In this document: positions 3,801-8,587 of the stretch, piece after piece
How the letters are laid out: each line of letters opens with the position of its first letter
Position numbering within the stretch: the first letter of the stretch is position 1
Translations under genes and position numbers: made by a program
Notes under the pieces: model-generated
Databases searched by the model: none
What the model was told of the DNA's origin: nothing
The model's input: the letters and a program-made list of their open reading frames with translations, nothing else
Origin: Hufsiella ginkgonis
Lineage (GTDB): Bacteria; Bacteroidota; Bacteroidia; Sphingobacteriales; Sphingobacteriaceae
DNA: 64,000 nucleotides
Direction: 5' to 3'
Assembly (NCBI RefSeq): GCF_009834915.1
Contig: NZ_WVHS01000001.1
Location: 682,001-746,000, forward strand

Positions 3801-6800
3801 ATGGGAAAGACACCACTAACAAAATCCGCGAAAGGAGCCGGGGAGGGATTGCGGTTCCAGCGTCTCTTCACCAAAGACGACGTAAATGTTTATGATCTTT
3901 TTAAATACGAGAAACGGTCATCAGTGATACGTAACCCTGCCGGGGATGCCGTATTTGAAATGAAAGATGTGGAGGTTCCCGCTTCGTGGAGCCAGGTGGC
4001 TACTGATATTCTGGCCCAAAAATATTTCCGGAAAGCCGGTGTCCCGCTGGCCGATGGAACAACAGGTTCAGAGAAAAGCATTAAACAGGTCGCCCATAGG
4101 ATGGCGGATTGCTGGAAACAATGGGGAAGCCGATACGGCTACTTCGCTTCCGCGCAGGATGCTGATATATTTTACGACGAACTGGTGTATACCATCGTCG
4201 GCCAGCTGGCGGCTCCTAATTCGCCACAATGGTTCAATACAGGTTTACACAGCGCCTATGGTATAACCGGTAAACCACAGGGTCATTACTTTGTAGATCC
4301 CGGAACGGAGAAATTAGAAAAATCCACTTCTGCGTACGAGCGCCCTCAGCCGCATGCCTGCTTCATCCTTTCGGTAAGCGATGACCTGGTCAATGATGGC
4401 GGTATCATGGACCTTTGGGTACGTGAGGCCCGGATCTTTAAGTACGGTTCGGGTGTAGGTACAAATTTCAGCGCCATCCGCGGCGAAAGCGAGAAACTGT
4501 CAGGCGGCGGTCATTCGTCGGGGCTGATGTCGTTCCTCAAGATCGGCGACCGTGCAGCAGGCGCGATCAAGTCCGGCGGAACTACCCGCCGTGCCGCTAA
4601 AATGGTTTGCCTTGACCTGGAACACCCTGAAATTGAAGGATTTGTTAACTGGAAAGTAGAAGAAGAGAAAAAAGTAGCGGCGCTGATAGCCGCCGGCTAT
4701 TCTTCCGATTACGAAGGCGAAGCTTACCGCACTGTTGCCGGCCAAAACTCCAATAACTCCGTACGTATCCCTAACAGCTTTTTCCACGCTTTACAGGAAG
4801 GAAAGTCATGGGACCTCATCGGCCGTACCACCGGCAAAGTGGTTAAATCCATTTCTTCCGAGAAATTATGGCAGGACATCGCTTTTGCGGCCTGGGCCTG
4901 CGCAGATCCCGGGGTACAGTACGATACCACCATCAACGAATGGCATACCTGCCCCGAAGGCGGACGCATCAATGCTTCGAACCCATGCTCAGAATATATG
5001 TTCCTGGATAATACCGCCTGTAACCTGGCCTCTGTTAACCTGGCACATTTCTTTAATCCTGACACGCTGGTATTCGATGTAAAAGCTTTTGAACATGCCT
5101 GCCGCATATGGACCGTTGTATTGGAAATTTCGGTGTTGATGGCACAGTTCCCGTCAAAAGAAGTGGCACAGCTTTCTTATGATTACCGTACGCTTGGCCT
5201 CGGATACGCAAATCTCGGCGCTATGCTAATGGTTGCCGGAATTCCTTACGATTCGAACAAAGCCCGGGCGATCGGTGGCGCCATCACCGCTGTAATGACC
5301 GGGACAGCCTACGCGACATCCGCCGAAATGGCGAAAGAGCTCGGCGCATTTAAACGGTTCGAAGACAACAAACAACACATGCTGCGCGTAATGCGCAATC
5401 ACCGCTACGCCGCTTACAACGCCAATGAGTACGAAGGGCTCGAAATTGCGCCTCCCGGCATCGATCCTAAATATTGCCCCGACTACCTGCTTTCCGCTGC
5501 CTGCAACGCATGGGATAAAGCAGTAGAAATGGGCGAAATGTACGGTTATCGCAATGCGCAGACTACCGTTATCGCGCCAACTGGCACCATTGGCCTGGTC
5601 ATGGATTGCGATACTACCGGCATCGAACCCGATTTTGCATTGGTGAAATTTAAAAAGCTCTCAGGTGGCGGATATTTTAAAATCATCAACCAGGGCGTAC
5701 CCTCTGCATTACGCAACCAGGGTTACAAGGAGCACGAGATAGAGGCCATTGTGAACTATGCCAAAGGCGCCGCAACGCTGAAAGGCGCTCCGCACATTAA
5801 CTTTGATAGCCTCGCATCAAAAGGATTCAGCCAGGACGAGCTCGAAAAGATCGACAAATCCCTGCTTGCCGCATTCGAGATCGGGTTTGTATTTAACCAG
5901 TGGACATTAGGCGAAGACTGCCTGAAACGCCTCGGGTTTAAACCTGAACAATATAACGCCCCTGATTTCAACCTCTTACGCGCTGTTGGCTTTACACGCC
6001 AGCAGATCGCAGAAGCCAATGAGTATATCTGCGGCACCATGACCATCGAAGGCGCGCCTTACCTTAAAAAAGAACATTACCCGATATTCGATTGCGCCAA
6101 CCGCTGCGGAAGCAAAGGTCAGCGTTATATCCACGCACACGGCCACATTAAAATGATGGCAGCCGCACAACCCTTCCTGTCGGGAGCTATTTCCAAAACC
6201 ATTAACCTTCCCAATGAGGCAACTGTTGAAGAGATAAAGGATTGTTACGAACTTTCCTGGAAGTTGGCTCTTAAAGCAAATGCGCTCTACCGCGACGGGT
6301 GTAAACTATCACAGCCGCTCTCTACCAAATCATCAGACACCAAAGAAGACAAGCTCGATAGCGTGGAAGAAGTGCTTGGTGAAGCAGCAAATGTAAAGCT
6401 CAGCGATCTTACCGCAGAGCAGGTACTGGAAGCCGCCCGCGCCATCCTGGAAAAATCTACCGACACTAAATTTAAGCGCCAGTTGTCATCGGTGGTCGAA
6501 CGTAAAGTACTGCCCGCTAAACGCCGCGGCTTTACCCAGAAAGCGAACGTTGGCGGACAAACCGTCTTTGTCCGCACCGGCGAATACGAAGACGGAACTT
6601 TGGGAGAGATCTTCGTGGACATGCATAAAGAAGGCGCCACCTTCCGCTCGTTAATGAACTGCTTCGCCATCGCGGTTTCTGTAGGCCTGCAGTATGGTGT
6701 TCCGCTCGAGGAATTCGTTGATAAATTCACCTTTACCCGGTTCGAACCATCCGGAATGGTAATGGGTCACGATAATATCAAGACCTCAACCTCCATCATC

Positions 6801-7106
6801 GACTATATTTTCCGCATGCTTGGCTACGAATACCTGCAACGGACCGACCTTGTCCATGTACTCACCGAGCAGCCGGCAGCACTCGAAAATCCGCAATTCG
6901 ATGAAGAAGACGTAAATACAGATCATACCAATGTATATCTACCGGAGTCCAAACCCACAGGCAGCGTGAAACTGAAACCCGTACTGGATATCTCCGGCGG
7001 CGGGCAAAGTGATGCGCCCGCCTGCGGCAACTGCGGCCACATTATGGTAAGATCCGGCACCTGTTACAAATGTTTAAATTGCGGGACGCAAGGCGGTTGT
7101 TCCTAA
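3801..7106 (+). CDS. nrdJ: Adenosylcobalamin-dependent ribonucleotide reductase (class II)
   Basis: This 1101-residue enzyme reduces ribonucleotides to deoxyribonucleotides for DNA synthesis, using a radical generated from adenosylcobalamin. Recognisable class II elements include [20 protein letters not shown] (first redox Cys), [15 protein letters not shown], the active-site segment NPCSEYM with Cys near residue 396, and [16 protein letters not shown] Cys-rich C-terminal tail ([14 protein letters not shown], then [11 protein letters not shown]) follows, typical of the vitamin B12-dependent NrdJ type. The length matches that family. No R2 subunit is adjacent, as expected for class II. A candidate promoter and DnaA-box-like sites lie upstream, and I found no cobalamin riboswitch. 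A terminator follows at 7130-7153. Confidence 0.95.
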
Positions 7107-7321: not shown

Positions 7322-7912
7322 ATGCGAAATCGTGACGATCAGAAAGAACAGGCAATCCGTGAAAAGGTGATTGAATTGACCGCACAGGAAGGTTTCGACG
7401 GGCTGAGCATGCATAAACTCGCCCGCGCCGCGGGCGTATCTCCTGCCACCATTTACATCTACTTCAAAGACCGGGAAGACATGCTTCTGCAGGTTTTCAC
7501 AGAAGTAAGTGACCAGATGTATAAGGCTACCATAGAGAGCTTCGATCCGGATATGCCGTTTGCCGAAGGGTTACGCGTACAGTGGATCAACCGGGCACAT
7601 TACTTCATTAACCACCCGATGGAAATGCAGTTTCTCGAACAGATGCGTCATTCGCCGCTAAACGAAAAGGCGATGGCACAAAACGCCTCTATGTTTAAGG
7701 AATCCATGCAAAAGTTTGTCCACCAGGCGATCGACCGGAAGGAATTGATCCAACTGCCTTTCGAAGTATACTGGTCGATTGCGTTTGCGCCTATGTACCA
7801 ATTGGTTAAGTACCACGCCCAAGGAAATAGCTCTGCCAGTGAACGGTTTGAGCTGACCGAAAACATTTTGGAACAGGCCCTCCGGCTGGTAATAAAAGCG
7901 CTGACACCTTAA
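7322..7912 (+). CDS. TetR/AcrR family transcriptional regulator
   Basis: This 196-residue regulator has an N-terminal TetR helix-turn-helix at about residues 8-55, with EGFDGLSMHKLARAAGVS and PATIYIYFKDREDMLLQVF, the standard recognition-helix pattern. The C-terminal ligand-binding half is divergent, as usual. The palindrome at 7292-7309 immediately upstream suggests autorepression. A 78-residue gene follows after 9 bases and is probably co-transcribed. No efflux pump is linked, so the effector cannot be guessed. Confidence 0.9.
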   Translation: MRNRDDQKEQAIREKVIELTAQEGFDGLSMHKLARAAGVSPATIYIYFKDREDMLLQVFTEVSDQMYKATIESFDPDMPFAEGLRVQWINRAHYFINHPMEMQFLEQMRHSPLNEKAMAQNASMFKESMQKFVHQAIDRKELIQLPFEVYWSIAFAPMYQLVKYHAQGNSSASERFELTENILEQALRLVIKALTP

Positions 7913-8158: not shown

Positions 8159-8284
8159 ATCACCTGTTTACGGCACCCGGTTATGTACTGACGTGGGATG
8201 ATACCTGTATGGTGATGTTCTGTTTCCTGAATAAATTGTAGCATAACGAAAACATCTTACATAACTATAGCCGTTCAATCGGTT

Positions 8285-8300
8285 TTGGCAGGCTTCTTGC
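8285..8300 (+). promoter_or_regulatory. Sigma-54 (RpoN) -24/-12 promoter match
   Basis: TTGGCAGGCTTCTTGC matches the RpoN consensus TTGGCACG-N4-TTGC at all but one position, and the GG and GC pairs are exactly 12 bases apart. Transcription would start near 8312. That excludes the ATG at 8302 as a translation start and points to the ATG at 8326. Control by an enhancer-binding protein is inferred. Confidence 0.6.
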
Positions 8301-8325
8301 CATGTTTATGAAAAACACAACTACC

Positions 8326-8517
8326 ATGAACTTGAAAAGATTATTCGGCACCATACTCACTATCCTCGGCATAGTTGGGTTGATCTATGCAGCTATCGGT
8401 TTTGTTAACGGCAGTTCAGCTGCTAAACCCTTAATAGTGTACGGAATACTAGGCGTAATATTCTTCTTTACCGGAATCGGCCTGGTAAGATCTACACAGG
8501 ACGTGGCGAAGGCATAA
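8326..8517 (+). CDS. Small two-helix membrane protein
   Basis: This 63-residue protein has two predicted transmembrane helices: residues about 5-25 (LFGTILTILGIVGLIYAAIGF) and about 36-55 (PLIVYGILGVIFFFTGIGL). It ends with a short polar tail. An earlier in-frame ATG at 8302 falls inside the sigma-54 promoter, so the start at 8326 is preferred. It stands alone between the TetR operon and a convergent NlpC/P60 gene and ends at a bidirectional terminator. The function is unknown. A sigma-54 promoter on such a small membrane protein suggests a stress- or envelope-responsive role. Confidence 0.6.
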   Translation: MNLKRLFGTILTILGIVGLIYAAIGFVNGSSAAKPLIVYGILGVIFFFTGIGLVRSTQDVAKA

Positions 8518-8532
8518 AAGATGACCGCATAA

Positions 8533-8562
8533 AAAAGCCGTTTCTAAGGAGAATCGGCTTTT
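8533..8562. terminator. Bidirectional terminator between convergent genes
   Basis: AAAAGCCG (8533-8540) pairs with CGGCTTTT (8555-8562). The stem continues inward as TTCT/AGAA past one mismatch and closes on an AAGG loop. A and T runs on either side let it serve both the 8326-8517 gene and the minus-strand gene ending at 8588. Confidence 0.8.
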
Positions 8563-8587
8563 GTTATTAAGGTATCGGGTTTGCTGT

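Follow-up and report, generated by a model that had tools for sequence, protein, structure and literature searches.

A conserved, probable sigma-54-type promoter before the gene for a predicted 63-residue helix hairpin in Hufsiella ginkgonis

Is the -24/-12-like sequence in front of a small gene of Hufsiella ginkgonis a promoter for sigma-54 (RpoN), and if it is, where would its transcript start, what would it encode and to which response would it belong? Little is known of the targets of sigma-54 in Bacteroidota, and a promoter conserved before a 63-residue protein without a recognised family is a clean entry point, with an expression condition that can be tested. The window, by which we mean the whole 64,000-nucleotide stretch of DNA that was analysed, contains the following features of the locus:

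8286–8290, plus strand: -24 element TGGCA, with GG at 8287–8288; TGGCA in 22/22 close orthologs
8297–8300, plus strand: -12 element TTGC, with GC at 8299–8300; in close orthologs TTG in 22/22 and TTGC in 15/22
8302–8310, plus strand: alternative in-frame ATGs at 8302 and 8308, both upstream of the predicted +1 and discarded as start codons
8312–8313, plus strand: predicted transcription start (+1/+2), placed by the typical spacing from a -12 element and by a conserved A
ending at 8325, plus strand: predicted leader of about 14 bases
8326–8517, plus strand: gene for the 63-residue two-helix protein, stop codon included
8533–8562, plus strand: terminator-like hairpin AAAAGCCG...CGGCUUUU, from its fold energy

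The -24/-12 site and its conservation

At 8285–8300 the window reads TTGGCAGG-CTTC-TTGC, with TTGGCAGG at 8285–8292, four intervening bases and TTGC at 8297–8300. The motif proper, TGGCAGGCTTCTTGC, occupies 8286–8300, the 12-base spacing of its GG and GC fits the sigma-54 phase, and the ATG at 8326 follows 26 bases downstream, all as the original prediction from the sequence had stated. The consensus for sigma-54 promoters is TGGCAYRN4TTGCW, from which the window motif departs at two positions, and with up to two mismatches allowed the window holds 28 matches against 30.4 expected. Exact TGGCA-N6-TTGC occurs five times in the window (0.72 expected), four of the five at other sites, and genome-wide there are 45 copies against 67 for the reversed control; among 30 of these 45 places that were examined, six, the window site included, lie outside any open frame of at least 50 residues on either strand. 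The bare match is weak, and what marks the motif as more than chance is its conservation in orthologs, not the single sequence; the promoter type proposed by the prediction stands on that conservation.

One genome collection contains 72 relatives of the protein; a simple search found it in 34/100 related genomes and a profile search in 212/301 genomes of the family, with a single copy in the window's genome. Pooling the simple search with the genome collection gave 102 loci, of which 91 were distinct, the window and 90 others. All 22 distinct orthologs of about 70% identity or more, a cut chosen after the list was seen, carry TGGCA-N6-TTG 36–45 bases before the start, which bears out the suggestion that the same promoter be sought before orthologs. 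Control windows of 60 bases at the same loci contain the motif in 2/2793 cases, with none in the ten successive windows just upstream. Within the close orthologs the flanking columns stay below 0.6 bits and the six bases between the boxes are variable, and since the sequence varies freely between and around the boxes, their conservation is not merely the similarity of close relatives. As for the GG/GC pair, whose lack of conservation the prediction had named as counting against it, the close set shows no variation at GG or at the -13 G (22/22 each) and has C in 15/22 (TTGC) and T in 7/22 (TTGT) at -12; among the wider orthologs the pattern is often lost, GGCA-N6-TTG within 60 bases of the start being present in 38/90 and absent from 52/90.

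Split by protein identity, the motif is in 36/73 orthologs at 60% or more, in 2/14 at 50–60% and in 0/3 below. A weighted consensus score of at least 14 is reached within 90 bases 5′ of the start at 51/91 loci, compared with 9 to 21 of 88–91 in eight windows further upstream and a mean of 3.4 in shuffles. An independent set, 40 further loci less four duplicates of earlier ones, contributed 36 new orthologs, of which 14 have the motif, against 0/36 in each of five control windows. It is present in all six from the two nearest genera (g21, 2/2; g22, 4/4) and unevenly elsewhere (g19, 4/10; g14, 2/11; g15, 0/3; g17, 1/5; g4, 1/1). The motif is absent from 14/15 named Flavobacteriales orthologs and from 7/7 in Algoriphagus, and with 52/90 orthologs lacking it the link between promoter and gene is not universal. 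Taken with the comparison of close orthologs, we consider it very probable that a sigma-54 promoter precedes the small gene.

Several variants were seen at individual loci. By eye, some motif-less members of the new set keep GG and TTG with a different base following GGC. Across genus g14 (L281–L291) the motif is found in 3/15, and in place of GGCA most retain an AAACAAA stretch and, near -30, a TTTTGT box. Six Algoriphagus orthologs (L060, L061, L064, L066, L070, L077) have TGGCATGATTGTGGA at about -43 upstream of the gene, possibly a variant with GG replacing GC. In two Chitinophaga species (L073, L074) a TTTGACT-N-AGTCAAA-like palindrome abuts the -12 box on its 3′ side.

Two other readings of the site bear on this assignment. 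The housekeeping sigma factor could read the gene from a TAnnTTTG box, the -24/-12 match being chance; two studies describe promoters of this kind as the norm for the phylum (PMC7366714, PMC6847099), and the absence of the sigma-54 motif from more than half of the orthologs would fit. Yet no TAnnTTTG-like site with at most one mismatch occurs at 8159–8325, TAHHTTTG is found in 0/39 orthologs with the sigma-54 motif and in only 4/52 without it, and the 22/22 conservation would be left unexplained, making this reading very unlikely. A switch of the motif-less orthologs to TAHHTTTG was also considered and was not borne out, either by that strict test (4/52) or in the new orthologs (0/22). Alternatively, the inverted repeat TGGCAGGCTTCTTGCCA, which has perfect five-base arms and which a pattern scan lists as terminator-like at 8286–8302, could be the operator of a dimeric regulator or the terminator hairpin of the upstream gene. 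Against this, no T run follows it, and GGCA-N7-TGCC occurs in 1/23 of the close set (the window alone) and 5/91 overall, compared with 23/23 for TGGCA-N6-TTG; we regard it as highly improbable.

The sigma-54 reading also accords with a search for the strict consensus TGGCAN5TTTGCA, which has 30 exact places in 14 genomes (control, 18). Eight of the 30, in eight genomes, precede the small-protein gene, and no second downstream gene turns up more than once; otherwise the sole place seen repeatedly lies within a 254-residue frame, in three genomes. On this modest evidence, no strict-consensus sigma-54 target in the branch would be more constant than this gene. At two further loci (L305, L327) a strict consensus between genes is followed by tiny frames of 43 and 57 residues, each with one hydrophobic stretch.

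Transcript, start codon and protein

Counting from the motif's first base, +2 and +3 of a sigma-54 transcript are expected at offsets 27 and 28. Offset 27 is A in 36/39 sequences and offset 28 is A in 32/39, although the distance from motif to ATG varies; these bases played no part in selecting the sequences. The spacing typical of -12 elements leads us to infer a transcript start near 8312. Three in-frame ATGs are available, at 8302, 8308 and 8326, and such a transcript would leave the first two outside it. The original prediction had preferred 8326 to 8302 and did not mention 8308; its choice holds against both. In none of the 90 other orthologs do the nine codons before the aligned methionine include an open in-frame ATG, 48/90 have a stop within eight codons 5′ of it, and GTG or TTG occurs there in nine, so that comparison, together with the predicted +1, argues for 8326 as the start. 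This codon has A at -3 and -6, and the ATGs at 8302 and 8308 have G and T at -3; A at both positions favours initiation in Flavobacterium johnsoniae (PMC6847099).

The protein is predicted to form a helix hairpin, with helices at residues 3–28 and 33–56 and a mean pLDDT of 90.9, and an alignment of 54 family members has 19 invariant residues. From the hydrophobicity of its sequence, the hairpin most likely sits in the inner membrane. The window protein has no match at cut-off in Pfam (the best, DUF373, scores 17–18 bits against 28.3) or NCBIfam; other members of the family have weak Pfam matches, listed without cut-offs. A literature search covering titles and abstracts returned no naming of the family or its promoter.

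Upstream lie a TetR-type regulator gene (7322–7912) and a frame of 78 residues with no family assigned, and downstream an NlpC/P60 gene on the opposite strand. Further upstream, a long frame at 3801–7106 resembles, by eye, a B12-dependent ribonucleotide reductase. The region 8515–8575 folds at -17.7 kcal/mol (z -3.88), better than all shuffles, and because of the hairpin at 8533–8562, which a pattern scan for terminators did not call, the gene is probably transcribed alone. The claim of a lone small two-helix protein thus agrees with the structural model and, probably, with the transcript.

Together these elements suggest a simple unit. Eσ54 would sit at the -24/-12 boxes (8286–8300) until an enhancer-binding activator opens the complex, transcription would proceed from near 8312, and translation from 8326 would yield the 63-residue hairpin, most likely in the inner membrane. 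As a whole, this one-gene sigma-54 transcription unit is the explanation that we think likely, with good confidence.

RpoN, its activators and the regulon

The window's genome has one strong RpoN match and six strong activators, of which five carry a receiver domain and the sixth (L005) lacks it. RpoN is present in 93/100 genomes, so its presence does not discriminate. One genome that has the promoter (G012) has only three activators, orthologs of L004, L005 and L008 at 85, 85 and 82% identity, and the activator of this promoter is likely one of these three types. L005 itself (G000:C21:217013-218252) lies 3–4 kb upstream of groES (G000:C21:220964), and the receiver-less activator lies at this distance upstream of groES in 7/7 genomes having both listed.

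An activator binding site upstream of 8285, which the original prediction proposed looking for, did not emerge: over 29 upstream regions the last 120 bases stay at or below 0.57 bits in every column, and neither palindromes nor dyads rise above shuffles, though the same script on grpE detected GACA-N3-TGTC in 10/27 regions (shuffle maximum, 6). A scan of a few intergenic regions adjoining activator genes returned nothing useful. A site seemingly shared with grpE, groES and lon (TGACGT, seen by eye) was dropped as counts did not support it.

In F. psychrophilum, which has three activators, mapped sigma-54 promoters precede genes for GroESL, Lon, DnaK, GrpE-DnaJ, HtpG, ClpB and Skp and the gliding operon, and the regulon is described as serving envelope stress and the quality control of proteins (PMC9723704). 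A scoring-matrix survey agrees, assigning the phylum's chaperones and proteases to sigma-54 (PMC12316311). We counted the promoter type at 30 of the loci found for each of grpE, groES and htpG, with one grpE locus (L167) left out. [N]GGCA-N6-[TC]TG precedes grpE in 27/29 loci (controls 0, 0, 1 and 0 of 29; minus strand 4/29), groES in 11/30 and htpG in 8/30. In the window's genome grpE and groES have this motif type and htpG is without it, and a frame recognised by eye as Lon has TGGCATATCCATTGCA 88 bases 5′ of its start.

The small gene could accordingly be grouped with the heat-shock targets grpE and groES, with which it shares this promoter type and which are among the published F. psychrophilum targets (PMC9723704). 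Against this, CTGNCAG occurs in 13/27 grpE and 8/11 groES regions and in 3/39 regions of the small gene, which is chance level (shuffles mean 1.2, largest 5), and it is not among the top dyads there; the -12 box is of TTGA type at grpE and of TTGC/TTGT type at the small gene. With the promoter class shared and CTGNCAG not, the small gene probably belongs to the sigma-54 regulon outside its heat-shock part, and we judge a place within that part unlikely. At grpE itself, TGACA-N3-TGTC or CTGNCAG often stands exactly 26 bases upstream of TGGCA across the class (L145, L143–L172), and CTGNCAG is also found upstream of groES; the element is a candidate operator of the heat-shock activator or of a repressor.

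Because the F. psychrophilum regulon comprises chaperones, Lon and envelope stress genes, a stress role is plausible, and the gene, like other sigma-54 targets of this phylum, may be expressed in response to envelope or protein-folding stress. By this analogy we give an envelope or protein-quality stress role somewhat less than an even chance, and the gene is put forward as a new candidate for a known regulon of stress type. More speculatively, the unnamed family could be what sigma-54 targets most constantly in its Sphingobacteriaceae branch, a membrane hairpin made under stress and acting on the envelope or on a membrane protein complex, with its promoter swapped between sigma-54 and another sigma factor across the phylum; this fuller picture is tentative and we would not bet on it. 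Were the stress role true, the phylum's envelope response would have a small effector unnamed in the literature searched. The conserved promoter moreover fixes the start codon and could serve as a compact reporter for assigning activators.

Comparison with known sigma-54 systems

In enterobacteria, pspG is a lone small membrane protein gene with its own sigma-54 promoter. The small gene here would share this arrangement, and the original prediction had named an envelope or phage-shock-type response. The two systems differ in that the window protein matches no family, Psp families included, at the Pfam or NCBIfam cut-off, and PspA has no match at E <= 0.001 in the window's genome. With no PspA match, phage shock is not supported and a PspG-like protein is exceedingly improbable; the envelope half of the proposal stays plausible by analogy to F. 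psychrophilum (PMC9723704).

With the F. psychrophilum regulon (motif SM4; PMC9723704), the locus shares phylum and promoter class; that species has three activators, and three conserved activator types make up the smallest set here (G012). No gene named in the published table consulted could be matched to the small-protein family, and named Flavobacterium orthologs of the small gene are without the motif, unlike the window gene.

Against sigma-54 promoters in general, the locus differs in a purine (A/G) after TGGCA in 23/23 close sequences, in a T at -12 in 7/23 and in the empty activator-site search of the 29 upstream regions. It shares with them the invariant GG and G, the 12-base phase, TTG(C/T), a short predicted leader and, by comparison of genomes, the accompanying RpoN and activators.
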